NCBI RefSeq assembly: GCF_017356035.1
Contig: NZ_JAFIQX010000002.1
Span: forward strand, 806,001 to 870,000
Length of the DNA: 64,000 bases
Reading direction: 5' to 3'
Source of the DNA: Longitalea luteola
GTDB taxonomy: Bacteria > Bacteroidota > Bacteroidia > Chitinophagales > Chitinophagaceae
Shown: positions 3,066 to 62,660 of the stretch, in pieces
Layout of the letters: every line of letters starts with the position of its first letter
How positions within the stretch are numbered: position 1 is the first letter of the stretch
The notes under the pieces: generated by a model
Seen by the model: only the letters and a program-made list of their open reading frames with translations
Database searches by the model: none
Told to the model about the DNA's origin: nothing
Program-made: the position numbers and the translations under genes

Positions 3066-3235
3066 TAAATCTCAGGAACCGAAATCACAGGAAGCAAAAT
3101 TTTAAGAACCGGAATCTCAAGACCCAAAAAATCCAACTAAATCACCAGCCTGAAGCAATGTTGACTGCTTGTAATTTGACCTTTGTTATTTGGTTCTTGT
3201 CTGGCTTTTGCGATTTGTGATTTGGGTTTTACCTT
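3066..3235. repeat. Heptamer-phased degenerate inverted repeat
   Basis: The left arm (about 3066-3145) contains words such as AAATCTC, AGGAACC and AAATCAC. The right arm (about 3172-3235) contains their complements, such as GGTTCTT, TTTGTGA and TTTGGGT, at roughly 7-bp steps. The vocabulary matches the block at 58001-58161. See the heptamer finding. Confidence 0.6.
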
Positions 3236-3335
3236 TTGGTAACACTGCTGTAACGGCCCGCTAATAGTGTTCTTGTACCTTGCGGTGATTCCATTTTTCA
3301 ATACCGTTCATGTACTTAACAGATGCAGTTATTGC

Positions 3336-3373
3336 AGCCGTTCCGTTCCGCTGTTTCGGAACGGGCGGCTTTT
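3336..3373 (+). terminator. Orphan terminator-like hairpin
   Basis: An 8-bp perfect stem (3343-3350 with 3357-3364) around a 6-base loop is extended by AGCCG/CGGCT outside a small bulge and followed by TTT. No coding gene lies upstream on this strand, so it may end a short non-coding RNA. Confidence 0.5.
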
Positions 3374-3652
3374 CAAAAAAAGATATGTTATAAAAATAGT
3401 GAATGAATGTTTGCAAATGGATTAGTGCGTATGATAGAAATAATTAAATGTAATTGGGTATTTTTTGGAAAATTGTAAGAAAAACGTAAAATTCTATAAA
3501 AAATTATGAATCTTTAAGTTGCCGGAAGTATCTTTAAGCATCTTATCCTCCCAAGAAAGCGATTACCAGAATATCCTGCTTAAAATAATCTCATTATAAA
3601 ATACTAAGATTCTCTATAAAGTGAGAGTTTTATTTTCTCTCATGTGACTGAC

Positions 3653-3683
3653 GCCGTTCGATTTCTATCGTGACGGCTTTTTT
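3653..3683 (+). terminator. Orphan terminator with T run
   Basis: Stem GCCGT...ACGGC (3653-3657 with 3672-3676), with inner TCGA/TCG pairing, is followed by seven T. Just upstream is a second small hairpin (TGAGAG 3622-3627 with CTCTCA 3637-3642). No annotated gene on this strand ends here. Confidence 0.6.
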
Positions 3684-3704
3684 GTTGCCGAACCTGTATA
3701 AATA

Positions 3705-3738
3705 CAAAAAGTGCCACCCTTATTGGAAGCGGTGGCAC
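3705..3738 (-). terminator. Terminator of the glycosyltransferase gene
   Basis: Read on the minus strand, the perfect 8-bp stem 3738-3731 with 3718-3711 is followed by five T (the AAAAA at 3706-3710). It lies 25 bp past the stop codon of the minus-strand gene. Confidence 0.8.
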
Positions 3739-3762
3739 GGGAAACGGAAGAACGAATGTTGG

Positions 3763-4797
3763 CTAATTAAAGATCAGATCGGGATACGGTATGTCCAGTT
3801 GTGATTTGAGATTGGTGCAGCGATACATCAATATGTTTATGATGGCTTCTGTGGAATACCGGTATTGCACCGTGGGCGTTAGCGGATCATTCACCCAGTT
3901 ATTGAAGGTGTCGGTGAAATCATCATCCAGTTTATCGAGGGTGGTGATGCCTATTTTTTTAAGCGCAGCCGCATTACATTGTTGTTCGTATTGGCCCTGA
4001 ATGGGGATAGCGATCATTTTCTTTTTCAGGTACAGCGCCTCGGCAGGCGTTTCGAAACCGGCACCGCATACAATGCCAAAACAGCTGATCAGGCTGCGGT
4101 TGAAATCCTTTGCATCAACCGGGTAGAAGGTCATATGATCGATGGTATACGGTTTTACGGCCTGGCGGGAGAACACCTCGAAGCGGTGGTCTTTAAAAGG
4201 CTTTAAAAGCGCTATTAATTCTTTATCGCAGTAGGAGGGGAGGTAAACGGTTATATGGCCTTTATTGCTCACCTCGGCTTTTAAGATCTCTTCTTTAATA
4301 ACCGGGGAGAAGATAAAGTTGTCATAGCTTTCAAAATGCAGGCCGATGTAATTGGTGGCACGGGCGTAGTTCTGCAGAATCCATTCGCCGGCTTTGCTGG
4401 GCTTGTCGGGCCGCGGTGTTTTGTCAGATACAAAGCTGGCCTGGTGGCCGAAGTTTACCGAAGGCACTTTTTTACGCGCGCAGGCTAAAGAGGTAATGCA
4501 TTCAAAATCGTTGATCACCAGGTCATATTTCTCAACCGGCAGGTCGCGCACTTCTTTCATTACCCGTAAAGGAGCAACGCGGCGAACGATCTTCCAGTAA
4601 TCGAGCCTGCCGTCGCAGGTATAAAAAAGGCTCAGCCCTTTGCTGCGGTATTTGATGGGGGCATTCAGGGGTAATGTACTGTTGGCTCCGCTCAAAAAAA
4701 TGTCAACGGTGCCATATTTTTGTAAATAAGGCAACAATTCCATGGCACGGCTTATATGTCCATTGCCGGTAGCCTGAATGGCGTAAAATATCTTCAT
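3763..4797 (-). CDS. MurG-like glycosyltransferase family protein
   Basis: The 344-residue protein starts MKIFYAIQATGNGHISRAME. Its Gly-rich, His-containing loop at residues 10-17 resembles the N-terminal loop of GT28/MurG-type (GT-B) enzymes. The C-terminal half has the matching nucleotide-sugar region at about 238-276 (VCGAGFETPAEAL...PIQGQYEQQCNA), where MurG homologues bind the UDP-sugar and end in Q-x-x-NA. The acceptor is unknown. It lies 78 bp downstream of the phosphoesterase gene on the same strand and is probably co-transcribed with it, which suggests a cell-envelope glycolipid role. No membrane segment is evident. Confidence 0.75.
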   Translation of the reverse strand: MKIFYAIQATGNGHISRAMELLPYLQKYGTVDIFLSGANSTLPLNAPIKYRSKGLSLFYTCDGRLDYWKIVRRVAPLRVMKEVRDLPVEKYDLVINDFECITSLACARKKVPSVNFGHQASFVSDKTPRPDKPSKAGEWILQNYARATNYIGLHFESYDNFIFSPVIKEEILKAEVSNKGHITVYLPSYCDKELIALLKPFKDHRFEVFSRQAVKPYTIDHMTFYPVDAKDFNRSLISCFGIVCGAGFETPAEALYLKKKMIAIPIQGQYEQQCNAAALKKIGITTLDKLDDDFTDTFNNWVNDPLTPTVQYRYSTEAIINILMYRCTNLKSQLDIPYPDLIFN

Positions 4798-4875
4798 GTT
4801 GTATGGTTCCTTCTCATCGGGTCTGCGCTGCTACTTCTGTTAAACTTCAGCGTACGCTATCGATGGCCGGAGATT

Positions 4876-5706
4876 TTATATTGCTAATGAATTAATATAA
4901 AAACTGATCTCGTCTGTAAGCACATTTACCTTTGCCGGGATGTCTATTGCCGTTTGTGGGAAATCCTTTTCGTTATATTCAAATATTCTCCATTCATTCT
5001 GCCGGTATTCCAGGGCGGTTAAATGTTCCACCCAGTCGCCTGAGTTGAGGTAGGTGACCTTACCTTTTTCGGTTTCTATCACTCTTTTCTGTGGCTGGTG
5101 AATATGTCCGCAGATCACATAATCGTATTTCTTTTCAATGGCCAGTTCGGCTGCGATGTGCTCAAAGTCATCGATCTTGGCCATTTTGTTTACGCCGGCC
5201 ATTACCTTTTTCGAGATCGACAGCTTTTCACGGCCGAAAGCTTTCAGTACAAAGTTTACGAGCCGGTTAAAGAGGATCAGGGCGCCATAACCATTGCTGC
5301 CCAGTTTGGCCAGTATCCTGGCGCCACCCCTCGTGGTATTGTCAAATACATCACCATGGAATATCCAGTGCATTTTATTGTCTATTTCAAGCACCAGCTT
5401 ATCGGTGAGGGTTAAATGACTAAGCTGGAAATCGCTGTAGCGGCGGAGTAATTCATCGTGATTACCGGTAATATAAAAAACGCGTGTACCCTTCATGATC
5501 AGGTTCAACACTTCTTTGATTACCGCCATATGGGAAGATGGGAAATAACGTTTAGAGAATTGCCACCCATCAATGATGTCACCGTTAAGGATAAGAATAT
5601 TGGGCAGAATACTTTTGAGGTATGCAACCAGCTCCTTTGCACGGCATCCGTATGTACCCAGGTGTACATCGGATATAACAACTACATCTACTGCTCGTTT
5701 TTCCAT
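4876..5706 (-). CDS. LpxH-like metallophosphoesterase
   Basis: The 276-residue protein is read from the ATG at 5704-5706 (MEKRAVDVVVISDVH); a start at 5733 would add nine unlikely residues. It shows the full calcineurin-like metal set: D-x-H (residues 13-15), GD (42-43), GNHD (81-84), a later HGD, and GHIH near residue 203. UDP-2,3-diacylglucosamine diphosphatases of lipid A synthesis (LpxH) belong to this family, and Bacteroidota often keep several paralogues, so the exact substrate is uncertain. It is followed on the same strand by a glycosyltransferase, consistent with envelope lipid metabolism. The region upstream of its start is filled by a long heptamer array. Confidence 0.8.
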   Translation of the reverse strand: MEKRAVDVVVISDVHLGTYGCRAKELVAYLKSILPNILILNGDIIDGWQFSKRYFPSSHMAVIKEVLNLIMKGTRVFYITGNHDELLRRYSDFQLSHLTLTDKLVLEIDNKMHWIFHGDVFDNTTRGGARILAKLGSNGYGALILFNRLVNFVLKAFGREKLSISKKVMAGVNKMAKIDDFEHIAAELAIEKKYDYVICGHIHQPQKRVIETEKGKVTYLNSGDWVEHLTALEYRQNEWRIFEYNEKDFPQTAIDIPAKVNVLTDEISFYINSLAI

Positions 5707-5797
5707 TGAGTTTGGGTTTATCAAAATTCCCATATATATATGACCGCATTGTTATAGCATTATTAAGCCGCCGTTAGGCTTATGTAAAGGAATTGTT

Positions 5798-5991
5798 ACG
5801 CTGAACGCAAAACGCAAAAACGCAAAACGCTGAACGCAAAACGCTGAAGGCTGAACGCAAAACGCTGAACGCAAAACGCAAAACGCAAAACGCAAAACGC
5901 AAAACGCAAAACGCTGAACGCTGAACGCTGAACGCAAAACGCTGAACGCTGAACGCTGAACGCAAAACGCTGAACGCAATACGAGTCAGGT
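5798..5991. repeat. Long heptamer array of two alternating words
   Basis: About 27 tandem 7-bp units are made almost only of ACGCTGA and ACGCAAA, with one AGGCTGA and one extra A near 5819. Because 7 is not a multiple of 3, all three minus-strand frames stay open and give false peptides rich in AFSV/AFCV/QRF. It lies between the phosphoesterase start and the DUF5690 gene. The word AACGCTG/AACGCAA recurs at 20531-20579. Confidence 0.95.
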
Positions 5992-6272
5992 TCAGGCGTA
6001 ACCATTTGTTCACACTGTCGTAAGAATGCGGTAATATAACGGCTGTATCTTAGAGGCCGTTTTATTGCTGTGTGTTATACATAAATAACAATCGTAGCAG
6101 TTTCTTAATGTTGACCGGCGGAGCTTTTTTAAGTTTCGCCCTTTTTTTTAGCGCTACCGTAAAGTGGGCGCTTTTTGTACCGGCATATTCCCGCAACCTG
6201 GCCGTCATTGCCTTTATTTACTTATTTTACAATAGAATCGTGTTCATCACATTTACTTAAAACTGCTCCGTT

Positions 6273-7565: not shown

Positions 7566-7569
7566 AAAA

Positions 7570-7612
7570 AATGTTGAAGTAAGCCGGTTGTACCCTGACC
7601 TACCTCAACATT
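7570..7612 (-). terminator. Terminator of the T9SS protein gene
   Basis: AATGTTGA (7570-7577) pairs with TCAACATT (7605-7612), extended inward by GTA/TAC after one mismatch. On the minus strand the stem is followed by seven T (AAAAAAA at 7564-7570). It lies between two convergent stop codons. Confidence 0.65.
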
Positions 7613-8805: not shown

Positions 8806-8899
8806 AGTCAGGGATATTAGGATTTGCACAAAGAAACGGCGGGAATGGGAGAATGAGCGCCCCGGCGAAGGTGAAATCGCGGCAATTAAAGAATTCTAT

Positions 8900-8984: not shown

Positions 8985-8986
8985 AA

Positions 8987-10036: not shown

Positions 10037-10049
10037 AAAAAACCAATGT

Positions 10050-10149
10050 GATAATTAGCTAACCAGCTAATGCGATAATGAAAGACCAATATAAGTGAAA
10101 TTAGCAAATTTGCTAGTTATCACATTATCCCATTATCACATTGTCACAT
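10050..10149. repeat. Heptamer inverted repeat between regulator and kinase genes
   Basis: The left arm carries AATGTGA, TAATTAG and GCTAATG; the right arm carries the complements (ATTAGCA, TTATCAC, CATTATC, TCACATT) at 7-bp steps. The TGA stop codon of the response-regulator gene lies inside the right arm. The same words occur at 18065-18240 and 20646-20681. Confidence 0.75.
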
Positions 10150-10821
10150 GGTGAATTTGTAGCCTACTCCTTTAACGGTGGTGATACAATCGATACCGAG
10201 CTTTTGACGGATCTTTCTAATATGTACATCGATAGTGCGGTCGCCCACAATTACATCATTACCCCAAATTTGATTGAGGATCTCATTGCGCAGGAAAACA
10301 CGTCCGGGTTTTGAGGCCAGCAGGTAAAGCAGTTCGAATTCTTTTTTTGCTAATACGACCGCTTTGCTGTCGACCTTCGCTTCAAATTTAACCGGGTCAA
10401 TTTCCAGGTTGTCGATCTTGATCACCTTTTCTTCCGGTTCTTTGTTGATGCGGCGGAAGATGGCATGAATGCGGCTAACAAGGATCTTGGGGCTAACGGG
10501 TTTGCTGATATAATCATCAGCGCCCGTTTCAAGGCCCTTTACATGGGAGCTTTCATCGCTGAGGGCGGTGAGGAAAACAATGACCGTATCTTTGAAGGCC
10601 GGCTGGGCGCGTAAAATTTCGCATACTTCAACCCCGTTTTTGCGGGGCATCATGATATCGAGGATGATCAGGTCGGGCTGACTCAACTTCGCTTTTTGAA
10701 TGGCATCATCCCCATTATTAGCTGTTACTATCTCGTATCCCTCTTTAGTAAGATTATACCGGATAATTTCCACTATATCAGGCTCGTCGTCTGCAATCAG
10801 GATCTTGCCTTTAGCATTCAT
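10144..10821 (-). CDS. Response regulator, PhoB/OmpR type
   Basis: The 225-residue protein is read from the ATG at 10819-10821 (MNAKGKILIADDEPD); the open frame runs to 11025, but that extension has no homology and lies upstream of a promoter match. The receiver domain has the acidic pocket (DDE at 11-13), phosphoacceptor Asp55 in LIILDIMMP, and Lys in ISKPV (about 105). The C-terminal winged helix includes LAKKEFELLYLLASKPGRVFLR and ends TTVKGVGYKF, typical of PhoB-like DNA-binding domains. It is cotranscribed with the kinase gene downstream. The stop codon is supplied by the adjoining heptamer block. Confidence 0.88.
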   Translation of the reverse strand: MNAKGKILIADDEPDIVEIIRYNLTKEGYEIVTANNGDDAIQKAKLSQPDLIILDIMMPRKNGVEVCEILRAQPAFKDTVIVFLTALSDESSHVKGLETGADDYISKPVSPKILVSRIHAIFRRINKEPEEKVIKIDNLEIDPVKFEAKVDSKAVVLAKKEFELLYLLASKPGRVFLRNEILNQIWGNDVIVGDRTIDVHIRKIRQKLGIDCITTVKGVGYKFTM

Positions 10822-10844: not shown

Positions 10845-11080
10845 CTTGAATTGGGGCTTTCCTGTAAATGATAATATTGAGTTCACAATTTCTTAATATA
10901 TCGACCCTGTTAACTAAATGATTAACAGGTTGGCGGGGAAATATGTTCACAGTTTGATAAGGTTGAAAAGGGGAAAGAACATCCGGTGCAAGCTTGCTAA
11001 AAGCTCTGAGCACAACGGTTTGCAACTGCAGTTTTGGAGATTGGTGGAGGAAACAAGGTTTGAGCCAAAAAACGGAGGCC

Positions 11081-11343
11081 GGGAGGTCGGACGTCGGAGG
11101 TCGGAAGTCGGAGCGTCGGAGGCCCGAAGTTCGGAAGCCGGAGGTCAGAGGTCAAAGGCTCGAGGTCGGAAGTCGGAGGTCAGAATTCGGAGGTCGGAGG
11201 CTCGAGGTGGGAACTGGAGGTCGGAGGTCAGAGGTCAGACGATCTTCCGATTTCAGACTTCAGACATCGGACTTCAGACTTCCGACTTCAGATTTCAGGC
11301 TTCCGACTTCGGATTTCAGACCTCAGATGTCAGATTTCTGACT
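11081..11343. repeat. Large heptamer inverted repeat, about 260 bp
   Basis: The left arm (11081-11240) is a chain of AGGTCGG, AAGTCGG, AGGTCAG, AGGCTCG and similar words. The right arm (about 11243-11343) is a chain of the complementary words ACTTCAG, ACTTCCG, ATTTCAG and ACCTCAG. Most neighbours keep a 7-bp step with occasional insertions. It fills the divergent gap between the response-regulator gene and the large secreted-protein gene. Confidence 0.93.
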
Positions 11344-11565
11344 ACCTTACGCCTGTAATTAAAGTTTTATAATAGAGTCCCGGGTCAACCCGGCCGGCTA
11401 TGGGGACCTGGCAGGCAGCAGTTTCAGACCATTCTAACCCATTTGTACAGGGTAAGGACAAAATGGCGGATTTCATCGCGGTCATTAAAGGTGGGAAATT
11501 CAAACTGTCTTATACAACCCTTTGGTCATATTTTTGCTCTATTCCATACAGATGTGCAGCATATT

Positions 11566-13776: not shown

Positions 13777-13830
13777 TTAGTTTGTGGTTTGTGATAACAA
13801 CAAACCACAAACAGCAAACCACAAACTAAT
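13776..13830. repeat. Perfect 16-bp inverted repeat of heptamer type
   Basis: Arms 13776-13791 and 13815-13830 are exact complements. A further unit at 13801-13811 repeats AAACCAC, so the right side reads as 7-bp steps AAACCAC, AAACAGC, AAACCAC, AAACTAA. It starts at the last base of the upstream stop codon. No T run follows, so it is not a standard terminator. Confidence 0.85.
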
Positions 13831-17571: not shown

Positions 17572-18066
17572 ATGGAATTACTTACCCCGGATTTAGGCTT
17601 ATTGGTGTGGAACTTTATCGCATTTTTGATCCTGCTGATCATCCTGAGAAAATTTGCCTGGAAGCCGATTTTGAAATCACTGAAAGAGCGTGAAACCGGT
17701 ATTGCCGATTCACTGGCTACAGCTGAAAGGGTAAAAGCTGAAATGGCGCAATTGAAAAGTGAGAATGAAGCATTGCTTGCCAAAGCCCGTGAAGAAAGAG
17801 CGCAATTGCTGAAAGAGGCTCGTGACACAAAGGACAGGATCATTGCAGAAGCCAAGGAGCAGGCAAAGGTTGAAGCCAATAAGATCATTGCTGATGCCAA
17901 TGCGGCTATTCAACAGCAAAAGATGGCTGCTTTAACTGATGTTAAGAATCAGGTTGGTACGCTGGTAATTGAGGTAGCAGAGAAAGTGTTGCGTCGTGAG
18001 CTGACTGATAAATCTCAGCAGGAAAAGTACATCAAGCAACTGGCTGAAGAAGTAAAACTCAATTAG
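17572..18066 (+). CDS. atpF: ATP synthase F0 subunit b
   Basis: The 164-residue protein has one N-terminal membrane helix (about 9-28, WNFIAFLILLIIL) followed by the Arg/Lys flank and a long charged coiled coil rich in Ala, Glu, Lys and Gln to residue 130. This is the classic subunit b stalk, expected as a homodimer; no b' gene is present. The C-terminal part (LVIEVAEKVLRRELTDKSQQ) is the delta-binding end. It is third in the cluster; its TAG stop abuts a heptamer block, and the gap to atpH is unusually long (174 bp). Confidence 0.95.
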   Translation: MELLTPDLGLLVWNFIAFLILLIILRKFAWKPILKSLKERETGIADSLATAERVKAEMAQLKSENEALLAKAREERAQLLKEARDTKDRIIAEAKEQAKVEANKIIADANAAIQQQKMAALTDVKNQVGTLVIEVAEKVLRRELTDKSQQEKYIKQLAEEVKLN

Positions 18067-18240
18067 ATAATGTGATAATTCGATAATGTTATAATGAATC
18101 ATCTTTCGTTTGGCACATTACGAGTTTCACAGGTGAGTATAAAAACAGTTATAATAATAGCGAAATGTGCTGATTGTTAGGAGACCAGATATTAGGGTCA
18201 TTATCAAATTGCCACATTAGCAAATTATCACATTAAGTTT
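18065..18240. repeat. Heptamer inverted repeat inside the atp cluster (atpF-atpH)
   Basis: The left arm (18065-18100) reads GATAATG, TGATAAT, TCGATAA and so on. The right arm (18196-18236) reads CATTATC, AAATTGC, CACATTA, GCAAATT, ATCACAT. About 95 bp of unrepeated sequence lies between the arms. The block reaches from the atpF stop to the atpH start. Confidence 0.75.
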
Positions 18241-20524: not shown

Positions 20525-20530
20525 ATGCGG

Positions 20531-20579
20531 AACGCTGAACGCAAAACGCTAAACGCCGAACGCTAAACGCCGAACGCAA
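20531..20579. repeat. Heptamer block, seven exact units
   Basis: Seven uninterrupted 7-bp units: AACGCTG, AACGCAA, AACGCTA, AACGCCG, AACGCTA, AACGCCG, AACGCAA. The words match the long array at 5798-5991. Confidence 0.92.
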
Positions 20580-20583
20580 AACC

Positions 20584-20624: not shown

Positions 20625-20645
20625 CAAACGCTTCGCTCAAAAGGC

Positions 20646-20681
20646 ATTATCACATTAGCAAATCATCACATTAGCACATTG
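20646..20681. repeat. Heptamer block of the TTATCAC/ATTAGCA type
   Basis: Units ATTATCA, CATTAGC, AAATCAT, CACATTA and GCACATT follow in phase. The vocabulary is that of 10050-10149 and 18065-18240. Confidence 0.7.
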
Positions 20682-53706: not shown

Positions 53707-53928
53707 CATCCTTCTTAACGATCGAATTGACATAAAAATTTCAGGCGTGAATTACTTTTTAACGTTTCCTCAACGTTTGATTCTCAATAAGAACGGAATC
53801 AGCGTTTAAAAGTACCGGCACAGTGAGGCAAAAAGAAGGCAGCCCCAAAAAGCGGCAAAAAGGCAGAAAAGTTTTGCGGCAACAGGGCCCTGATGAGGCC
53901 AGGGATCCGTAATGAGGCAGCCCGATAA

Positions 53929-53977
53929 CTTTGAACCATGAACCTTGAAACTATAAACTAAGAACTAAGGATTAAGA
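53929..53977. repeat. Heptamer block touching the leuS start codon
   Basis: Seven exact 7-bp steps: CTTTGAA, CCATGAA, CCTTGAA, ACTATAA, ACTAAGA, ACTAAGG and ATTAAGA. The block ends one base before the ATG at 53979 and therefore occupies the ribosome-binding region. Confidence 0.85.
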
Positions 53978-53978: not shown

Positions 53979-56753
53979 ATGGAATACAACTTCCGGGATA
54001 TTGAAAAAAAATGGCAGGCACAGTGGAATGCGTCAGGCTCCTATAAAGTGAGCAATGATTCCCCGAAACCCAAGTTTTACGTACTGGATATGTTCCCTTA
54101 CCCAAGCGGAGCCGGCTTGCACGTGGGCCATCCGCTGGGCTATATCGCCAGTGATATTTACAGCCGGTTCAAACGTTTGAAAGGCTTCAACGTACTACAC
54201 CCCATGGGGTACGATGCCTTTGGATTGCCGGCTGAACAATACGCCATCGATCATGGCGTGCATCCGGCCGTGAGCACCGACCAGAACATAAAAACGTTCC
54301 GCCGTCAGCTCGATAATATTGGATTCTGCTACGACTGGGACCGCGAGATCCGGACCAGCGACCCCTCCTACTATAAATGGACCCAATGGATCTTCCTTCA
54401 ATTGTTCAATAGCTGGTACAACCGCCAGGAAAAAAAGGCCGTTCCCATCGATAGCCTGATCAGCATCTTTGAAAAGGAAGGGAATGCCGGGCATGAGATC
54501 CCGCATGACAAATACCAGATCGCCAAAACCGGCAAACGGGTATTCACTGCAGCAGAATGGGGTTCTTTTTCAGAAAAAGAGCAGCAGGATATTTTGATGG
54601 AATACCGACTTGCCTACTGCGGTTATGGCGAAGTGAACTGGTGCGAAGCACTGGGTACGGTGCTGGCGAACGACGAAGTGATCAATGGCGTAAGCGAAAG
54701 AGGCGGCTACCCCGTGGTGAAAAAGAAATTACGGCAATGGTACTTACGCATTACAGAATACGCCGACCGGTTACTGGAAGGCCTTGACCGCATCGATTTC
54801 AGCGAGTCGATGAAGGAAATGCAAACCAATTGGATCGGAAAAAGTTATGGCGCAGAGATCAGTTTCAAACTGAAAGGCCCCGGCGATGAGCAATTGACAG
54901 TTTATACAACAAGACCGGATACCATTTTCGGGGTTGACTTCATGGTAATTGCCCCTGAACATGACCTGATAACATCCATTACCACCCCTGACCAAAAACA
55001 GGCGGTGGAAGATTATATCGCTTACGTAAAAAGCCGCAGTGAGCGCGAGCGGATGGCGGAGAAAAAGATCACCGGCGTCTTTACGGGGGCCTATGCATTG
55101 AATCCGTTCAATGGCCGCGAGATCCCGGTATGGATCAGTGAGTATGTGCTGGCGGGTTATGGAACCGGCGCCATCATGGCTGTTCCCTGTGGCGATGAAC
55201 GGGATCATAAATTCGCACAGCATTTCAATATTCCCATTACCAATATCATTGGCAGCCATTACGACGGCAATGAAGCCAATGCAACAAAGGATGCCAAACT
55301 GGAGAATTCCGATTTTCTGAATGGTATGGTAATGCGCGATGCCATGGAAGTGGTAATTAAAAAAGTGGAAGAAATGGGCATTGGCGTTCGCAAGGTGAAT
55401 TATAAAATGCGGGATGCGGCTTTCAGCCGGCAACGCTATTGGGGCGAACCATTCCCCATAACCTGGAAAAATGGCATTGCCTACCCGTTATCAGAAAACG
55501 AATTGCCACTGGAATTACCCCATGTGGATAGTTATAAACCGGGACCGGAAGGGGAGGGACCCCTGGCTAATATTGCCGAATGGACCTCGCGTGACCTGGA
55601 AACGAATACGATGCCAGGTTATGCCGGCAGCAGCTGGTATTTTCTGCGCTATATGGATCCGAAAAATGACGGCGAGTTCTGCAGCCGTAAAGCCAGCGAT
55701 TACTGGGGGCAGGTTGACCTGTACATTGGAGGAACAGAACATGCTGTTGGCCATTTGTTGTACAGCCGTATGTGGACTAAAGTCCTGTTTGATCTGGGGC
55801 ATATCGGCCATGACGAGCCGTATAAAAAACTCGTGAACCAGGGAATGATCCAGGGCAGCAGCCGGTTCGTGTACAGGATCCATGGCGCTAATAAATTCGT
55901 ATCCTACGGGTTGAAAGATCAGTATTCAACCGATGCCATACACGTAGATGTTAATATTGTTGATGGTGTAGAGCTGGATATACCAGCGTTCAAAAAGTGG
56001 CGCACTGAATATGAAACGGCTGAATTCATTCTGGAAGATGGCAAATACATTTGCGGAACTGAAATAGAGAAAATGAGTAAGCGCCTGTATAATACCGTTA
56101 ACCCGGATGATGTAGTAAATAAATATGGAGCCGATACTTTCCGCATGTATGAAATGTTCTTGGGCCCTGTAGAGCAAAGCAAGCCCTGGGAAACCAAAGG
56201 CATTGAAGGGGTGCATCGCTTCCTGAAAAAGTTGTGGCGTTTATTTTATGACGAGGTGAAAGGAAAAGTATGGACCGAAGGAAAAGCCACTCCGGCTGAA
56301 TTAAAAGTGCTGCACAAGACCATCAAGAAGATTGAAGAAGATACAGAACGTTTTTCGTTTAATACCAGTGTGAGCGGATTCATGGTGTGTGTAAATGAGT
56401 TGATCGAATTGAAATGCCATAAAAAAGAGATACTCGAAAAATTACTGATCTTACTTACGCCTTATGCGCCCCATATCAGTGAAGAGTTATGGCATTTGCT
56501 GGGTAACGACAGCTGCATCCTGGATGCTGAGTTCCCAAAGCTGAATGAGATCTATCTTGTAGAAAGCAGCAAGGAATATCCTGTTTCGGTAAATGGAAAA
56601 TTACGTACAACCATTGAAATACAAATGGATGCACAGCAGGAAGAAGTAGAGAAGATCGTGTTGGAGAACGATGTGGTGAAGAAATGGATGGAAGGCAAGC
56701 CGCACAAAAGAATCATTTATGTGAAGGGCAAGATGGTGAATGTGGTTGTTTAA
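53979..56753 (+). CDS. leuS: Leucyl-tRNA synthetase
   Basis: The 924-residue class I enzyme charges tRNA-Leu. It has the HIGH-type motif in PYPSGAGLHVGHPLGY (about 47-57), a large CP1 editing domain with YTTRPDTIFGVDFMV and the catalytic Asp site YVLAGYGTGAIMAVP, and the second ATP motif KMSKR at 698-702 (KMSKS in most homologues). The anticodon-binding and C-terminal domains are complete, ending KIVLENDVVKKWMEGKPHKRIIYVKG. A heptamer block lies right before the ATG and the leader seems long. Confidence 0.96.
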   Translation: MEYNFRDIEKKWQAQWNASGSYKVSNDSPKPKFYVLDMFPYPSGAGLHVGHPLGYIASDIYSRFKRLKGFNVLHPMGYDAFGLPAEQYAIDHGVHPAVSTDQNIKTFRRQLDNIGFCYDWDREIRTSDPSYYKWTQWIFLQLFNSWYNRQEKKAVPIDSLISIFEKEGNAGHEIPHDKYQIAKTGKRVFTAAEWGSFSEKEQQDILMEYRLAYCGYGEVNWCEALGTVLANDEVINGVSERGGYPVVKKKLRQWYLRITEYADRLLEGLDRIDFSESMKEMQTNWIGKSYGAEISFKLKGPGDEQLTVYTTRPDTIFGVDFMVIAPEHDLITSITTPDQKQAVEDYIAYVKSRSERERMAEKKITGVFTGAYALNPFNGREIPVWISEYVLAGYGTGAIMAVPCGDERDHKFAQHFNIPITNIIGSHYDGNEANATKDAKLENSDFLNGMVMRDAMEVVIKKVEEMGIGVRKVNYKMRDAAFSRQRYWGEPFPITWKNGIAYPLSENELPLELPHVDSYKPGPEGEGPLANIAEWTSRDLETNTMPGYAGSSWYFLRYMDPKNDGEFCSRKASDYWGQVDLYIGGTEHAVGHLLYSRMWTKVLFDLGHIGHDEPYKKLVNQGMIQGSSRFVYRIHGANKFVSYGLKDQYSTDAIHVDVNIVDGVELDIPAFKKWRTEYETAEFILEDGKYICGTEIEKMSKRLYNTVNPDDVVNKYGADTFRMYEMFLGPVEQSKPWETKGIEGVHRFLKKLWRLFYDEVKGKVWTEGKATPAELKVLHKTIKKIEEDTERFSFNTSVSGFMVCVNELIELKCHKKEILEKLLILLTPYAPHISEELWHLLGNDSCILDAEFPKLNEIYLVESSKEYPVSVNGKLRTTIEIQMDAQQEEVEKIVLENDVVKKWMEGKPHKRIIYVKGKMVNVVV

Positions 56754-56787
56754 TCAATTGGCACGTCACGATCGATGATTCACAAAA

Positions 56788-56832
56788 ATAAATATTAGGA
56801 GTCTCTGGTATACCGGAGGCTCCTTATATTTA
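56788..56832. terminator. Bidirectional terminator after leuS
   Basis: A long palindrome, AGGAGTCTCTGGTA facing CCGGAGGCTCCT, with few mismatches, is flanked by AAATA on the left and TATATTT on the right, so it can end both convergent genes. Confidence 0.8.
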
Positions 56833-56836
56833 TAGC

Positions 56837-57874
56837 CTATCGTTTCTTCCTTTGTTTTATAAATCTGATCAGCGCACTGCTGTTCTCCGTACTTTCCAAA
56901 CGCACTTCAAAACGTTTACCATCGATCATACAAACCATCGTGGACGTATTAGGCGGAATAGTTCCCAGGTTTTCGGCGACCATCACCATCTCATTATCTT
57001 CCAACAGATCATTTACCGATAGTTTCAGCGTATAGGGTTTGTTGTTCAACCGAACATGTTCAAATACCATTTTGTCGTTCAGGAAAACTGCAATGGAATC
57101 GCCATCTACCACTGCATTATCGTAGAACCGCAATTCAATGCTATCGCCGGCAATAGGAATTACTGTAGCCAGTTTCTTTTCGCGGCTGGAATATTTTTGC
57201 TCTGCCGTGGTGGCCGGAACCGGAGCTGGTTTTTTCTTCTCAACCATCGGAGGCGCAGTAACAGCTATGGACCGGTCGTCCTTTTGAACCGGTTTTACAA
57301 TAGCGCTTTCCAGGGTGGTTTCTTTTTCTTCAGTTACCTCATTGCTTACCAAATGCAGCCGGGCTATGCTGTCGATGATGTCAGGATCATTGGCTCCATA
57401 GATATAGTTCTCTAATACAAAATCCCATTCATCATGAAAGCCTGCGGAAGGAATTTTTTGCAGCGCCACCGTGCCGGTGGTTTTGTTTTTGTTATCGCGT
57501 TTGGTACTCTCACCATCGAGGCGCATGGTCTTTTCACCCGGGCAATTAAAATCAGCCACTGATAATAAGGCTTCTTTATCTCCGCCAAAAATTTTACCCG
57601 ACAGGCGGTCTTCCAATATGGCGTCATCCCACCATACTACGCTGTTGTTGTTGGGATCGAAATAGCCTTTAACTGCATAACGAATATAATTGCTACGCGA
57701 TGTATAGTAGTAAGATGTGCCCAGCAGGCTATCGCCTTTTTTAATGAGTTTTAACTCGGCATTGGCCGAACCGATCTTGCCTTTCCAGGCACCGGTAATG
57801 GTTTGAGCCTGCGTTGAAAGTTGAAAGAAGCCACCAAACAGCAGGCCCATTAGCAGGATGATACGTGTCTCCAA
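56837..57874 (-). CDS. Secreted protein of unknown function, two beta domains
   Basis: The 345-residue protein begins METRIILLMGLLFGGFFQLSTQAQ, a signal peptide. Residues about 25-135 (ITGAWKGKIGSANAELKLIKKGDSLLGTSYYY) look like a small lipocalin-type or beta-sandwich domain. A linker with Glu/Lys and Pro/Ala (about 180-230) leads to a C-terminal beta domain (IELRFYDNAVVDGDSIAVFLNDKMVFEHVRL) that resembles the lipid/sugar-binding domain of many Bacteroidota secreted proteins. No catalytic site is seen. It is a monocistronic unit convergent with leuS. Confidence 0.7.
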   Translation of the reverse strand: METRIILLMGLLFGGFFQLSTQAQTITGAWKGKIGSANAELKLIKKGDSLLGTSYYYTSRSNYIRYAVKGYFDPNNNSVVWWDDAILEDRLSGKIFGGDKEALLSVADFNCPGEKTMRLDGESTKRDNKNKTTGTVALQKIPSAGFHDEWDFVLENYIYGANDPDIIDSIARLHLVSNEVTEEKETTLESAIVKPVQKDDRSIAVTAPPMVEKKKPAPVPATTAEQKYSSREKKLATVIPIAGDSIELRFYDNAVVDGDSIAVFLNDKMVFEHVRLNNKPYTLKLSVNDLLEDNEMVMVAENLGTIPPNTSTMVCMIDGKRFEVRLESTENSSALIRFIKQRKKR

Positions 57875-58209
57875 GGCGATTAATTTAGCTTATTAAAAAT
57901 GTACAACGCCCGGTAAAGGGTAATATTTTGCCTCGATTTTCATTTAACGATTCCACTAGAATTTCCTTTCACGCTGATTTTTAACCATTTCCTGGCCAAA
58001 TGCCAAATCACAAGACCTAGGAAGCAAAGAAATTAAAAATATCAGGTATCAAGTCCAAATTGCTCCAGCATTTCCCGTGGGATTTTTGGATTCGAGTTTG
58101 TTTTTTGGTTCTTGTGATTTGGTTCTTGTGATTGGTGTTTGTGATTTGGTTCTTGTGATTTATATGAACTAATCTTTTTCCTTAGCTGTTTTATTAGGAA
58201 ATTAGCAAT
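57875..58209. other. Divergent intergenic region, mostly heptamer repeat
   Basis: About 335 bp. Nearly half is the heptamer block at 58001-58161. No exact TAnnTTTG match is next to either gene. Confidence 0.55.
58001..58161. repeat. Heptamer inverted block
   Basis: On the right (58107-58161) GGTTCTT and GTGATTT alternate: GGTTCTT, GTGATTT, GGTTCTT, GTGATT, GGTGTTT, GTGATTT, GGTTCTT, GTGATTT. The left arm (58001-58030) has the complement AAATCACAAGACC. Words match 3066-3235. Confidence 0.85.
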
Positions 58210-58698
58210 ATGGCACATCCAAATTCAGCGTTGATCGAAGGTCTGCGAACAGCTGCCGCCGGCCTGGTTAAGGGCAATTATTATGCCTGGGGACATCATG
58301 GCGCCTGCAATTGCGGACATTTATTACAGGCAACCACTCAATTGACGAAAGAAGAGATAGTTACCTACGCACATACAGGTATCGGTGAGTGGACGGAGCT
58401 GGCACAGGAACATTGCCCAGTTACCAATGCGCCAATTAATTTATTGCTTACGAAGTTGCAGCAACTGGGACTTACGCCTACGGATATACATAACATTGAG
58501 TACCTCGAAGACCGCGAAGTTTTAAACCGCTTACCCGGCGGCTTCAGATGGCTGAAACGAAATCTCCGTGCAGACGTTATCCTGTACTTTGAAACTATGG
58601 CGAATATGCTGGAAGAAAAATTGATCAGTGATGTTGAGATCAATTACAGTGAGATAATGTCAACTGAAGAAGTGATGGTTTCCCATGTATTCGAATAA
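58210..58698 (+). CDS. Conserved hypothetical protein
   Basis: The 162-residue protein has no signal peptide or membrane helix. The N-terminal motif YYAWGHHGACNCGHLLQ contains two His and two Cys close together (about 25-37), suggesting a metal site or a redox pair. The middle (ELAQEHCPVTNAPINLLLTKLQQLGLTPTDIHNIEYLEDREVL) is helical. It is familiar as a Bacteroidota protein, but I cannot name a family. It is cytosolic by sequence. Confidence 0.68.
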   Translation: MAHPNSALIEGLRTAAAGLVKGNYYAWGHHGACNCGHLLQATTQLTKEEIVTYAHTGIGEWTELAQEHCPVTNAPINLLLTKLQQLGLTPTDIHNIEYLEDREVLNRLPGGFRWLKRNLRADVILYFETMANMLEEKLISDVEINYSEIMSTEEVMVSHVFE

Positions 58699-58708
58699 TG
58701 GATTTTTG

Positions 58709-58849
58709 TCACTTTTTCACATCATCCTGGTCACCGGTTTCCATATACTCATTCCGATCCTTTTTGTAATTCATCAGAATGGTATAGGACACAATCGTGA
58801 CAGCCAGTATTAAATAAAATATAATCATCCACGTATCCATACCCTGCAT
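58709..58849 (-). CDS. 46-residue single-pass membrane protein
   Basis: On the minus strand an ATG (58847-58849) opens a 46-codon frame with a TGA at 58709-58711. The product starts MQGMDTWMIIFYLILAVTIV, then has YTILMNYKKDRNE and an acidic-basic tail ending GDQDDVKK. One clear helix (about 7-28) is followed by positive residues, so the N-terminus is outside and the tail inside. The frame has normal codon use for this window. I do not know a homologue. It is opposite and convergent to the conserved hypothetical gene. Confidence 0.55.
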   Translation of the reverse strand: MQGMDTWMIIFYLILAVTIVSYTILMNYKKDRNEYMETGDQDDVKK

Positions 58850-59052
58850 TGTTTTAATTTATTTAGTCAGAAATTATGCCATTTTGTAATTTGTGTTGAA
58901 AAGTTCAGCGCTGCTACGTATTTGTCTGTATCAAAGCACCTGTTACTGATTGATTATTAAGGAGATGATCGTATCTTAGCATACAGCATTTTCTGATAAA
59001 AAGTTAATTGAATCAGAAGCCTGATTATTAGTGTATTATAATTCCCCTTTTC

Positions 59053-59760
59053 GTGGAGCCAGCCAGTTTTGAAAATATCATCCGAAAATATCAGTTTAGT
59101 TTTCACCGCGTAGTTGATTTCGTGCCGGAGACAGATCGCTTATTACCAATGGATTTCACTGCGCAGAATAAAGAACTGACGCCTGAAACGCTGGGCAATG
59201 AGCATGTTTTCAGTGAATATATCCGGCAGAAACTGAGATCGACCAACTCCCGGTATGGCATAGGCGGTTATGCCGAACACAGAACCATTTATAGCATAAG
59301 CCCCGTATTTGATGGCGCACAAGCGGGTGAAGAACCCCGCCGCCTGCATTTAGGCGTCGATATCTGGGGCCTCGCCGGTACACCTGTATATGCTTTTATG
59401 GGCGGCATGGTGCATAGCTTTGCTTTTAATGCGCCGTTTGGCGATTATGGTGCAACGTTAATTCTGCTGCATCAATTAGATGGTTTCCCGTTTTATACAT
59501 TGTACGGGCATTTAAGTCTTCGCGACATTCAATCAATAGCTGCGGGTCAATACATTTCTGTTGGGCAAACCATTGGCCATTTCGGGGAATTGCATGAAAA
59601 CGGACACTGGCCGCCGCATCTGCACTGCCAGATCATTCTTGATATGGAATTGAAAGAAGGTGATTATCCAGGCGTTTGTAAATTTTCAGAAAGAGAGAAA
59701 TACTTAGCCAATTGTCCCGATCCCGATCTTATTCTGCAATTGAACAGGTATCTTAAATGA
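59053..59760 (+). CDS. M23 family metallopeptidase
   Basis: The 235-residue protein has the LytM/M23 zinc motifs: HLGVDIWG (His and Asp), YTLYGHLSL and PPHLHCQI (HxH). Such enzymes cut peptidoglycan cross-links. There is no signal peptide, and the start is a GTG at 59053 (MEPASFENIIRKYQF) with no ATG nearby. Either it is cytosolic or it uses a non-classical exit. Possibly it is a regulatory or degenerate member, but the motif residues are intact. Confidence 0.85.
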   Translation: MEPASFENIIRKYQFSFHRVVDFVPETDRLLPMDFTAQNKELTPETLGNEHVFSEYIRQKLRSTNSRYGIGGYAEHRTIYSISPVFDGAQAGEEPRRLHLGVDIWGLAGTPVYAFMGGMVHSFAFNAPFGDYGATLILLHQLDGFPFYTLYGHLSLRDIQSIAAGQYISVGQTIGHFGELHENGHWPPHLHCQIILDMELKEGDYPGVCKFSEREKYLANCPDPDLILQLNRYLK

Positions 59761-59846
59761 TTCATTGAAGCCGGCATTTATAGCAATAAACGGGTTGACG
59801 TGTACAATTGATCCTGGCAATTTTGTGTTTCAAAATGTACAGCAAT

Positions 59847-60329
59847 ATGAAATTTAAAATTGTGCCGTTGTCAAAGGAGTATGCCGCCCAGATCAGATCA
59901 ACCGGCAAAGATGCATTTGATCATCCTGCTATTGAACAGGTGGCTACAGGGTCAGGGCCTTGCAGAGTATCGCTTAAACCATTTAAAAAAGGAATTGACA
60001 GAAGGCTGTTGATCAGCCACAGTCCCTTTGAGATTGATAATGCCTATAACCAACCGGGTCCGGTCTTTATCAATAAGGAAGAAGTGGAACCATATGCAGA
60101 CATTCATCGTTTTCCGCCTGAGATAAAAGCTAATAAAAAAAGTTTTCCATTATCACTTATAGGGTACAGTCATGATCAGCAGATGATCTTTACGCAATTG
60201 GTTGGCGACGATGATGTGGATGAACTGATAACCCGTATATTTATTCAGCGACCGGAAGTAGCCTATCTTCATGCCCGCAATGCACAGGCATGTTGCTACA
60301 TCTGCAAAATTGAAAGAGTTCACGAATAA
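59847..60329 (+). CDS. DUF1203 domain protein
   Basis: The 160-residue protein is read from the ATG at 59847 (MKFKIVPLSKEYAAQIR); ATG 59835 is an alternative. It matches DUF1203: GSGPCRVSLKPFKKGIDRRLLISHSPFE near the middle and VAYLHARNAQACCYICKIERV at the end, with conserved Cys residues in both. Function is unknown. It is 86 bp downstream of the M23 gene. Confidence 0.8.
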   Translation: MKFKIVPLSKEYAAQIRSTGKDAFDHPAIEQVATGSGPCRVSLKPFKKGIDRRLLISHSPFEIDNAYNQPGPVFINKEEVEPYADIHRFPPEIKANKKSFPLSLIGYSHDQQMIFTQLVGDDDVDELITRIFIQRPEVAYLHARNAQACCYICKIERVHE

Positions 60330-60338
60330 AGCGTATGC

Positions 60339-60623
60339 CTACAGCATAGCTTTCACCAGTTCTTCCCATTCCTGATCGAGGGTATAACCGGGCATGCGTT
60401 TACCGGCTTTTGTGTACCAGTAATTGGCATTCCAAACATCACCTTCCTTGCGGTGCAGATATGCATGGATCCAGGCGGCTGATTTATCAGGCACATCCTG
60501 TATTAATGTATGGGCATGTTCCCAGTCGCCTTTGGCATCATGCCACAATGATTGAAGGTATACATTGCTGTTGGCAGGCGGCGTATTGGTCGTAAGGCTT
60601 TGTTGAAAGATTTCGAAGTTCAT
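60339..60623 (-). CDS. Conserved small protein
   Basis: The 94-residue protein is read from the ATG at 60621-60623 (MNFEIFQQSL). It contains WHDAKGDWEHAHTLIQDV and WNANYWYTKAGKRMPGY, with many Trp, His and Tyr, a composition seen in a small Bacteroidota family of unknown function. The helical content and repeated motifs are TPR-like. It is convergent with the DUF1203 gene. Confidence 0.65.
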   Translation of the reverse strand: MNFEIFQQSLTTNTPPANSNVYLQSLWHDAKGDWEHAHTLIQDVPDKSAAWIHAYLHRKEGDVWNANYWYTKAGKRMPGYTLDQEWEELVKAML

Positions 60624-60650
60624 ACCCAAAGTTAGCCTTATTCACTATGT

Positions 60651-60699
60651 TTTTAACTGTGAACTATAAACTTTTGGCCTTTAAACTTTCAACAGCTTA
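60651..60699. repeat. Heptamer block covering the oxidoreductase 3' end
   Basis: Seven exact units: TTTTAAC, TGTGAAC, TATAAAC, TTTTGGC, CTTTAAA, CTTTCAA and CAGCTTA. The last six codons and the stop of the minus-strand gene lie inside. Confidence 0.82.
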
Positions 60700-61328
60700 A
60701 ATGCATGTGTCCATTGGTTTTCCCTGAATCCCGGAATGCACCAGAGGATGCATAAAGGCTCGATGGCGCGGGCTGCTACGGCCTTGCCCATATCGGCTGT
60801 TTCCCAGCCAAAAGCGGTTAATATTTCCGTTACAGTCCGCTTCGCATTTGCATCATTACCGCAAATGAACATGGTTGGTGGACCGCCTTTCACCGTTGGC
60901 TTATACATTTGTGCATTACCTACAGTGTTAAACGCTTTTACCATTCTGGCTTCCGGCAGCAGCTGCTGCAGCTTTTCCATCAGGGATTCATTAGAGTCGG
61001 TAAAGAGGGAGAGTACTCCGTCTTTGGGTGGGGCAGCAGCTATGGGGTTGGTGGCATCGATAAGTACTTTGTTATTGAAATGAGAAGTGCCCGATAATTT
61101 GATGGCCGATTCTGCAACCGAGCCGGCAACAGCGAGTACCAGGATCTCGCCAAATTGGGCGGTTACGCCAAACGTACTGCATAGCCCTTTGGGATTGTCT
61201 TTCTTCCATTTCTTTACCTCTTCTTTACCAGGGTTACGTGTGCCCAGCATAACTTCATGTCCTTCCGTTAAAAAGGCGGTGCCCAGTTTCTGGCCAACAG
61301 CGCCGGAGCCAATAATGCCAATTTTCAT
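60681..61328 (-). CDS. NADP oxidoreductase, coenzyme F420-dependent family
   Basis: The 215-residue protein has a Rossmann fold (GIIGSGAVGQKLGTAF at the N-terminus) and the GTRNPGKEEV motif for the NADP phosphate. Later motifs IDATNPIA and VKAFNTVG match the NADPH-dependent F420 reductase-like family. F420 is not expected in Bacteroidota, so the protein probably uses another acceptor. The end of the protein (FKLLKV) is encoded by a heptamer block. Confidence 0.82.
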   Translation of the reverse strand: MKIGIIGSGAVGQKLGTAFLTEGHEVMLGTRNPGKEEVKKWKKDNPKGLCSTFGVTAQFGEILVLAVAGSVAESAIKLSGTSHFNNKVLIDATNPIAAAPPKDGVLSLFTDSNESLMEKLQQLLPEARMVKAFNTVGNAQMYKPTVKGGPPTMFICGNDANAKRTVTEILTAFGWETADMGKAVAARAIEPLCILWCIPGFRENQWTHAFKLLKV

Positions 61329-61416
61329 AATCTGGTCATTTTAATGGTATAAGTGTAAGTGATCATATATGATTTTTATTCGGAACCGCTGGTTGGTTGC
61401 TATTAAGTTAGTGAAT

Positions 61417-61449
61417 TTTGTGTTTGCCTGGTTAACTCGCTTACATTTG
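61417..61449 (+). promoter_or_regulatory. Candidate promoter of ruvB
   Basis: TTTG at 61417-61420 and TACATTTG at 61442-61449 are 21 bp apart. The leader to the ATG at 61478 would be about 22 bases. Confidence 0.6.
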
Positions 61450-61477
61450 TGTAGTTTTACAAATAGGTGTATAACAG

Positions 61478-62515
61478 ATGGCCAATCCGAATTTAAATAA
61501 CAACAGAGAGTCGCTGAGTGCAGCGGATAAAGAGTTTGAGAATAATATCCGGCCCCAGGAAATAAACGATTTCTCGGGGCAGGGACAGATCATCGAGAAC
61601 CTGACCGTATTCATCAAAGCGGCTAAAATGCGTGATGAAGCCCTGGATCATATCCTGTTCCATGGCCCGCCCGGCTTGGGTAAAACCACCCTGAGCCGCA
61701 TCGTAGCCAATGAGCTGGGAGTAAATATCAAGGAAACGAGCGGACCGGTCATTGAAAAGCCCGGCGACCTGGCAGGGTTGCTTACGAACCTGGAGCCGCG
61801 GGATGTGTTGTTTATTGATGAGATACACCGCCTGAGCACGGTGGTAGAAGAATATCTGTATGCGGCTATGGAAGATTACCGTATCGATATTATGATCGAT
61901 AGCGGTCCCAATGCCCGCAGCATACAACTAACGTTGAACCCTTTTACTTTAATTGGAGCTACCACCCGCAGCGGATTGCTGACTGCTCCGTTATTATCGC
62001 GCTTTGGAATTAAATCTCGCCTCGAATACTATACGGCCGATACATTGCAGAAGATCATCCAGCGTTCAGCCGGCATTCTGGGCACAAAAATAACGTCTGA
62101 TGCAGCCGCTGAAATTGCGCGGCGCAGCCGCGGCACGCCACGTATTGCCAATGGCCTCTTGCGCCGCATGCGCGATTTTGCGCAGGTATTGGGAAATGGC
62201 GTTATTGACCTGGGCATAACGCAACATGGTTTAAAGGCATTGAATGTTGATGAGCATGGACTGGATGAAATGGATAACCGCATCCTGCTTACCATCGTTG
62301 ATAAGTTCAAGGGCGGACCCGTTGGCATTACCACGATTGCTACGGCCGTAGGTGAAGAAACCGGCACGTTGGAAGAAGTGTATGAGCCTTTTTTGATTCA
62401 GGAGGGCTTTTTAAAACGCACACCGCGTGGCCGTGAGGCAACCCATAAAGCGTATGCTCATTTGGGCAGAATAGCACCCGGAGCCGGAGGAGCCAATTTG
62501 TTGTTTGAAGGCTGA
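61478..62515 (+). CDS. ruvB: Holliday junction branch migration ATPase RuvB
   Basis: The 345-residue AAA+ motor drives branch migration with RuvA. It has Walker [10 protein letters not shown], Walker [10 protein letters not shown], sensor 1 LIGATTRSG and the arginine finger in [14 protein letters not shown], followed by the winged-helix domain ending [22 protein letters not shown]. The gene ends GAAGGC-TGA, where the stop codon is part of a perfect (GAAGGCT)6 repeat. ruvC is 16 kb away. Confidence 0.96.
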
Positions 62516-62548
62516 AGGCTGAAGGCTGAAGGCTGAAGGCTGAAGGCT
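62507..62548. repeat. Perfect (GAAGGCT)6 tandem repeat
   Basis: Six identical 7-bp units without error begin inside the last codons of ruvB and supply its stop codon. The identity suggests recent expansion, unlike the degraded blocks. Confidence 0.97.
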
Positions 62549-62600
62549 GAAAAATTTCGGGTTTGCAAGATAGGTTGTTAATCTTAAAGTTCGCGAGCTG

Positions 62601-62660
62601 TTCACGATTGTCGATTCACGATTGTCGATTGATTGCCGATTGTCGATTGACGATTCACGA
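62601..62660. repeat. Heptamer block TTnnCGA
   Basis: TTCACGA, TTGTCGA, TTCACGA, TTGTCGA, an extra TTGA, then TTGCCGA, TTGTCGA, TTGACGA and TTCACGA. Confidence 0.9.

Follow-up and report, generated by a model that had tools for sequence, protein, structure and literature searches.

What process builds the short tandem arrays that lie between the genes of Longitalea luteola, a member of the Chitinophagaceae? The window analyzed here is a stretch of 64,000 nt (NZ_JAFIQX010000002.1:806,001-870,000), whose coordinates are used below unless a contig is named. It carries about a dozen arrays built in steps of 7 or 8 nt, each unit consisting of a short conserved core and variable linker letters. To our knowledge, heptameric repeats of bacteria have been noted for decades and have no accepted origin; the short tandemly repeated repetitive (STRR) sequences of cyanobacteria are degenerate, dispersed heptamers with words that differ from those of Longitalea. 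The best reading of the arrays, at a probability of about 0.4, is core-directed copying, by which units pass within an array or from one array to another. A sequence-only reading of the window had described about twenty blocks, always of a 7-bp unit and with a word that differs by locus. The blocks are real in the window and in the sampled part of the genome; their count, register and wording are corrected here.

Register and vocabulary of the arrays

The L. luteola genome (G000) was sampled over 864 kb of its 7.3 Mb, consisting of the window, C11:1-200k, C33:1-200k and C22:400-800k. Blocks were scored as segments of self-match at lag 7 or 8 (cut-offs of 12, 13, 14, 16 or 20, depending on the analysis), chance was modeled by an order-3 Markov simulation of noncoding DNA in five replicates of 120 kb, and genes were called by simple open reading frame (ORF) scans. 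At a score of at least 20, the sample contains 65 blocks at lag 7, 26 at lag 8, 1 at lag 9, 3 at lag 11 and none at lags 6 and 10, with multiples of 7 and 8 elevated too, compared to 0 simulated blocks at each lag from 2 to 40. At lower cut-offs the simulation mean at lag 7 is 1.2 blocks at score 12, 0.4 at 13 and 0 from 14 upward, with 0 blocks at lags 6, 8 and 9. With coding DNA counted too, 128 lag-7 and 68 lag-8 blocks reach a score of at least 14, compared to 4 at lag 6 and 5 at lag 9. The period-7 excess, against which an equal excess at 6 and 8 would have spoken, is thus confirmed: there is none at 6, and that at 8 is real but smaller. Non-homopolymer 5-mers in 115 kb of intergenic DNA recur at 9.2 times expectation at spacing 7, 5.4 at 8, 7.1 at 14 and 4.6 at 16, and at 1.0 to 2.0 times at the remaining spacings from 5 to 15. 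The lag-7 blocks of score at least 20 lie mostly outside ORFs of at least 100 aa (59/65), and arrays cover ∼7.5% of the noncoding bases (9,000/120,172). This excess of 7-nt tandem units over chance (65 vs 0 simulated) is a feature of bacterial heptanucleotide simple sequence repeats (LSSR); a near-perfect iteration of one unit, their other feature, is not found, as linker letters vary in most arrays.

The vocabulary is shared genome-wide and does not differ by locus as first described. In total, 210 arrays of score at least 13 (138 heptad and 72 octad arrays) link into 11 groups, the largest with 128, 40 and 21 members and 3 being singletons; the group of 128 heptad arrays results from chained linking, where 51 of 705 links disagree in sign. 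The main families, named by core, are as follows.

7-nt families: AAnGC, CAATnG, ARTCnG, AACYTG, AACYGG and AAACCA
8-nt families: TAATGTG, AAATCYC and GTTAACC

The AACGC triplet AACGCNNAACGCNNAACGC occurs 568 times in the L. luteola genome and 19, 65, 61, 117, 9, 8, 15, 1 and 2 times in nine congeners. Such triplets are present in 7 of the 98 genomes of a family sample, L. luteola among them; they number 130 in G029, which belongs to another genus, and 12 in G097. Period-7 arrays occur in all eight congeners sampled for them, often with different words. A set of 80 named Bacteroidota loci, selected as relatives of ruvB, has 30 lag-7 blocks at 17 of them, compared to 7 blocks at lag 8, 4 at lag 6, 3 at lag 9 and 2 at lag 10. 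The closest named relatives of the genome are for the most part Chitinophagaceae.

The sharp register of 7 or 8, with none at 6, 9 or 10, is what pure local replication slippage with one register per locus would give, as proposed for bacterial heptanucleotide repeats. Clearly expanded arrays point the same way, including those at 5798 and 62497 in the window and an AACTGTG/AACTGTA heptad array of ∼700 bp in the congener G001 (C46:174112-174813, a position taken from pooled stretches). The evidence of cores and arms, presented next, weakens this explanation.

Cores, linkers and facing arms

The conserved core comprises about 4 to 6 nt of each unit. In period-7 arrays, two adjacent columns hold 63% of the mismatches, compared to 51% expected (51 filtered arrays; combined p of 7e-11; 13 arrays individually below 0.05). 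Each core keeps its own spacing: AACGC pairs number 76 at 7 nt and 1 at 8 nt, and TAATG pairs number 24 at 8 nt and 1 at 7 nt. AAATC is the sole core using both registers, with 40 pairs at 7 and 84 at 8, and its heptads and octads alternate within a single gap at C22:486417-486834. This gap and its neighbor at C22:483827-484279 hold copies of an AAATC-word element in opposite orientation with a common 40-nt spacer.

The linkers show where units may come from. In the AAnGC family, the chance of identical linkers is 0.23 for adjacent units and 0.26 to 0.37 for units two to eight apart in the same array, compared to 0.14 between arrays. In 14 of 18 long AAnGC arrays the linker diversity is like that of a random draw from the genome-wide pool; the other 4, among them the 24-unit array of the window with only 2 variants, are poor in variants and point to slippage-like events. 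The pool itself is strongly non-random, with correlated letters, which disfavors neutral linker drift under selection of the core, and it differs between L. luteola (214 linkers) and G029 (49 linkers) with p of 5e-16.

The sequence-only reading had noted complementary arms, and the arrangement proves stricter than described, with orientation fixed per word. For arms at most 300 bp apart in L. luteola, a single order is found for TAATGTG (9/9), CAATnG (4/4), AACYTG (5/5), AACYGG (3/3) and AAATCYC (4/4), and 7 of 8 AAnGC pairs follow one order; among the small groups, CAAT[AT]G is split 1 to 1 and GTTAACC has one pair. The congeners show one order in 5/6 AAnGC, 5/5 TAATGTG and 2/3 CAAT[AT]G pairs. 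Hairpins were collected in five data sets, including 50 from the 864 kb of L. luteola, 39 from congeners and 46 from G029. In a family-free test, 149 like-worded hairpin pairs of L. luteola agree in polarity, 9 disagree and 3 are ambiguous, all 9 disagreements involving the one hairpin at C22:415282; the counts are 92 to 1 with 2 ambiguous in the congeners and 162 to 5 with 1 ambiguous in G029. The G029 stretches (200 kb) were picked around known AACGC hits, which biases their array density upward.

Plain slippage is insufficient because the words recur across the genome, each word has one hairpin polarity and adjacent AAnGC units are not the most alike. Slippage gives the register, not shared words, polarity or unlike neighbors, and as a full account it is improbable. 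Of the slippage or polymerase-driven process with a 7-base register that had been suggested for the window, the register stands (8 for other words); the idea of a polymerase register has itself been published (Mrazek and co-workers 2007, as cited in PMC4692102 and PMC4679880).

Complementarity is no higher between the two arms of a hairpin than between same-word arms of different hairpins (mean ranks of 0.33 to 0.54 over six families and 40/43 hairpins). Letter-by-letter copying between arms is thus unsupported, as the arms share the word and not the letters. Template switching at quasipalindromes likewise uses imperfect inverted repeats as switch sites, but that process makes the arms letter-identical (PMC8794818, PMC7202029). 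Spacers have medians of 34 to 59 nt over the five data sets; most are unique, and a few recur at distant places. A role of the spacers as terminators does not fit, with a spacer-folding z of -0.52 for 37 hairpins compared to -0.50 for 111 controls.

The common polarity and the shared words would also be expected if each family descended from a mobile or copied hairpin, similar to repetitive extragenic palindrome doublets (REPINs) or miniature inverted-repeat transposable elements, followed by slippage and decay. The spacer medians agree with this, as does a recurring 'GGAATACAG' tail beside octad arrays, of which one 69-nt stretch is matched at four places (C11 at 145 kb, 438 kb and 909 kb, and C22 at 548 kb). 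Arrays are also underrepresented in divergent gaps, at 0.59 per kb compared to 1.40 in tandem and 1.59 in convergent gaps, which likewise agrees; convergent and tandem gaps are favored too by the inverted pairs of REP and REPIN elements (PMC3733652, PMC3116915). This origin is nevertheless unlikely: spacers are mostly unique, detected hairpins contain just 57 of the 152 arrays that score at least 16, and in contrast to REP and REPIN elements no conserved palindrome of fixed sequence was seen in the Longitalea arrays and no link to the REP-associated tyrosine transposase (RAYT)-like gene. Mobility driven by that gene is not supported, given its one syntenic copy beside aroB together with arrays at 0 of 30 other family loci of the gene, compared to 3 of 19 ruvB control loci. 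Arms lie at most 150 bp upstream of it in 7 of 9 congeners; as each genome has a single, syntenic copy of the gene, they represent one inherited gap.

Side observations concern both subjects. Octad arrays followed by the recurring tail GGAATACAGTTCCGATAATC stand at C11:145095-145507, at 438.6 kb and 909.8-910.3 kb, and at C22:548.4 kb, as a local tandem and at four distant places. The RAYT-like gene is a single-copy IS200/RAYT-like Y1 transposase gene at C39 (L171:7213-7668), between an ORF that resembles DAHP synthase by eye and aroB; the congeners examined keep it in synteny, as though it were domesticated.

A templated, telomerase-like enzyme that writes repeats has a parallel in DRT10, a reverse transcriptase making tandem-repeat DNA (PMC12632851). 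Repeat addition to two 3' ends would be in keeping with irregular repeats that have a fixed alignment core and carry one word on both facing arms. The 5' arm contains more G than C in 124 of 155 hairpins, with 28 opposite and 3 ties, which also fits; as a rule the G-rich 5' arm is only suggestive because the families are not independent and the AACGC words of G029 break it. With its many words, a genome would require many templates, a unique spacer separates the arms, and the reverse transcriptase found genus-wide is a type XIII retron with only a weak match to its reverse transcriptase domain, not full-length, in G029 and no match in G097. Since G029 is array-rich in its sampled stretches, array synthesis by this retron is unsupported, and a templated enzyme of any kind is highly improbable. 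The retron reverse transcriptase of L. luteola (C1:225349-226860; L233:5349-6860) is of PADLOC type RT_XIII (E of 5e-188), with close matches in the congeners G001 and G009 and reverse transcriptases of 507 to 529 aa in six more; the ORF upstream resembles a SWIM zinc-finger protein by eye.

Core-directed copying of units, the preferred reading, may account for most of these observations at once. During DNA synthesis, the growing strand would slip or switch template and re-anneal through a core match with another unit of the same array, the opposite arm or a like-worded array elsewhere, and whole units would be added or swapped. Units with a damaged core would drop out because re-annealing needs the core, and the linker letters would be carried along and reshuffled from the genome-wide pool. 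Facing arms form imperfect hairpins, which may favor template switches and may be tolerated between genes. The copying step, the preference for 7 and 8 and whatever fixes polarity are the conjectural parts of this model.

Several points weigh against it. The model alone explains neither the fixed polarity nor why the step is 7 rather than 6 or 9, and the copying itself is our inference. The two-column effect is absent in period-8 arrays (28 arrays; p of 0.75; 1 individually below 0.05). Differences of the linker pool of L. luteola from those of G003 (13 linkers) and G005 (9 linkers) are not significant, at counts too small to tell, and the L. luteola pool is weighted by a few long arrays. Few copies at different loci have kept a common spacer (32 alignments of one gap with another). 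In words kept between species, differing sites number 62/593 in cores, 117/358 in linkers and 161/932 elsewhere, a contrast that can be inflated by aligning one unit out of register, which raises the linker figure; an initial comparison at two octad loci showed only a weak contrast (51/482 vs 93/586).

Gene gaps, window arrays and their history

The slower change of core sites than of other aligned sites leads to a different explanation, in which cores are binding words, for a protein or within an RNA structure, kept by selection while linkers go unread, and two facing arrays form a functional site, for example, near gene 3' ends. The fixed polarity and the folding of hairpin RNAs (3/3 tested; z of -3.2 to -7.7) would suit this. 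In tandem gaps, arrays are shifted toward the upstream stop codon (quartiles of 30, 20, 18 and 13), which is also in its favor; single arrays there show no orientation preference (28 sense, 21 antisense), which is not.

Synteny with G007, G003, G005, G004 and G002 allows comparison gap by gap. Of 49 window gaps, at least 22 carry an array in one or more of six genomes, and co-occupied genome pairs number 47, compared to 27 expected (standard deviation of 4; 0 of 1,000 length-matched permutations). In C22:400-800k, 15 gaps are occupied in both L. luteola and G007 and 24 in L. luteola only (15/39); the figures with G003 are 17 and 22 (17/39). This reoccupation of gaps, and arms conserved nearly letter for letter such as those at 18061-18235, again agree with selection. 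The co-occupied pairs, which are not independent and go back to ∼15 source gaps, match in word in 34 of 47 cases, compared to 88 of 926 unrelated gap pairs.

The 13 of 47 pairs that lack a word match argue against binding words, as whole words are replaced within the same gap. At 56753-56837, arms are of CAATAGA type in G005, G002 and G007 and of AAGCTAC type in G003, and at C22:606102, AAATC words in L. luteola and G007 stand against GAAGTAG words in G003. Unit order is shuffled between the orthologous arrays of L. luteola and G007 at C22:612988, and a 16-nt dimer is expanded in the orthologous array at C22:611856. Orthologous gaps mostly differ throughout, in a gap-by-gap comparison rather than a systematic search for empty sites with target-site duplications. 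About a dozen cores per genome with other cores in relatives, linkers that reflect a correlated pool specific to the genome instead of a free composition, spacers no more structured than controls and a window free of Rfam matches likewise speak against binding words. Selection on cores would explain why cores change slowly and gaps are reoccupied, but not word replacement or a genome-specific linker pool, and as the main cause it is possible, though rather doubtful.

The window arrays were located by Tandem Repeats Finder (TRF) and lag scoring. They include seven lag-7 blocks of score at least 14 and three lag-8 blocks, plus one 3' arm of score 12.

3207-3237: weak lag-7 block, score 12
5798-5983, plus strand: AACGC-TG/AACGC-AA heptad array of the AAnGC family, single arm; TRF; lag-7 score 113 (5798-5977); 42 BLAST matches in its own genome
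10045-10152, no strand assigned: octad hairpin TAATGTG, 5' arm at 10045-10080 and 3' arm at 10098-10152; lag-8 score 23 for the 3' arm; hairpin list
11082-11341, no strand assigned: ARTCnG heptads, 5' arm GGAGGTCGGA to ∼11236 and 3' arm TCAGACTTC from ∼11240; lag-7 score 83; TRF
13796-13826, plus strand: AAACCAC heptad array; TRF; lag-7 score 14; same word in this gap of G003 and G004
18061-18096, plus strand: octad 5' arm of the GATAATGT family; lag-8 score 14; nearly letter for letter in G007, G005 and G002
18200-18235, minus strand: octad 3' arm pairing with the 18061-18096 arm; lag-8 score 12
20527-20582, plus strand: AACGC-NN heptad array; TRF; lag-7 score 25
20645-20680, minus strand: ATTAGCAC/ATTATCAC octad array; TRF; lag-8 score 14
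53927-53976, plus strand: AACTAAG-type heptads; lag-7 score 23; end adjoining the leuS start codon at 53979
58104-58161, plus strand: 14-nt dimer array GGTTCTT-GTGATTT with one unit shortened; TRF and lag scoring
62497-62551, plus strand: TGAAGGC heptads; lag-7 score 40; start within the last codons and stop codon of ruvB
62605-62661, minus strand: CGATTGT/CGATTGA/CGATTCA heptads of the CAATnG family (reverse strand); lag-7 score 24; TRF

Of the blocks first claimed, 60651-60699 stays below a lag-7 score of 12, with a likeness to the AACTTTG family by eye only. The stretch at 3067-3100 has a period of 15 by TRF. The TTATCAC/ATTAGCA blocks described as heptamers (10098-10152, 18061-18096, 18200-18235 and 20645-20680) score at lag 8, not 7.

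By eye, the array at 5798 occupies the place where G007, G004 and G002 have a variable stretch of ∼60 bp framed by conserved flanks. The hairpin at 10045-10152 has an RNA fold z of -5.15, and arms occur in the same gap of G007, G003, G005 and G002; for 11250-11343 the z is -3.19, and G007 carries another word (AACYGG) in that gap. The ORFs at 10918-11358 (146 aa) and 10994-11341 (115 aa) consist wholly of heptad repeat and are probably spurious genes. The array family beside leuS is scored in G007, G003 and G005 and recognized by eye in G004 and G002. The TGAAGGC stretch is a perfect repeat at 62506-62551 by TRF, and the 62497 array adds one residue to RuvB (FEG-stop, compared to FE-stop in G007).

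Known systems and the meaning of the arrays

Among the long simple repeats of many bacteria, those with a heptanucleotide unit are the most abundant (as cited in PMC4692102 and PMC4679880). The GGGAATC heptamers of Xanthomonas are likewise intergenic, dispersed and scarce between divergent genes, form facing pairs (70 and 75 in two species) and vary much in length and sequence between related species (PMC4692102). Facing inverted pairs are found in L. luteola as well, with 50 hairpins in 864 kb. Xanthomonas uses one G-rich, quadruplex-capable word, in contrast to the many words and two periods of Longitalea, whose leading words lack runs of three or more G by sequence, rare cases excepted. The GGGGA(C/T)T heptamers of Nostoc are degenerate and dispersed as here, with other words and few reported facing pairs (PMC4692102).

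A lack of any described counterpart in Bacteroidota, as had been supposed for the window, does not hold. TAACTGA direct repeats, also intergenic heptamers, are reported from Beggiatoaceae, cyanobacteria and five Bacteroidetes, the latter with larger heptamer assemblages (PMC4679880). Some stand just before start codons, and the AACTAAG heptads at the leuS start codon, kept in the genus, recall those of Beggiatoaceae. One word was followed there, compared to many words, facing arms and a core-and-linker pattern here. Heptameric repeats are thus already known from cyanobacteria, Xanthomonas (with facing pairs), Beggiatoaceae and some Bacteroidetes, and Longitalea presents a richer version. In the open-licence literature searched, no account of multi-word heptad arrays in Chitinophagaceae was found; the multi-word vocabulary with polarity per word, the octads beside heptads and the core-and-linker pattern appear to be new by that measure.

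For annotation, such arrays are a warning, as they create spurious repetitive ORFs and shift stop codons. The genus combines many words with both registers; the polarity of its facing arms is known, and its gaps can be compared as orthologs across ten species. Slippage, selection, dispersal and templated synthesis predict different things in it. A stronger form of the copying reading, in which copying is encoded in the genome rather than arising from local slippage and cores act as replicators, with core-plus-linker units written and reshuffled across the genome in fixed 7- or 8-nt steps, always in one polarity around a spacer, is on present evidence unlikely. If true, the intergenic DNA of these bacteria would carry competing populations of 'words' that differ between species.

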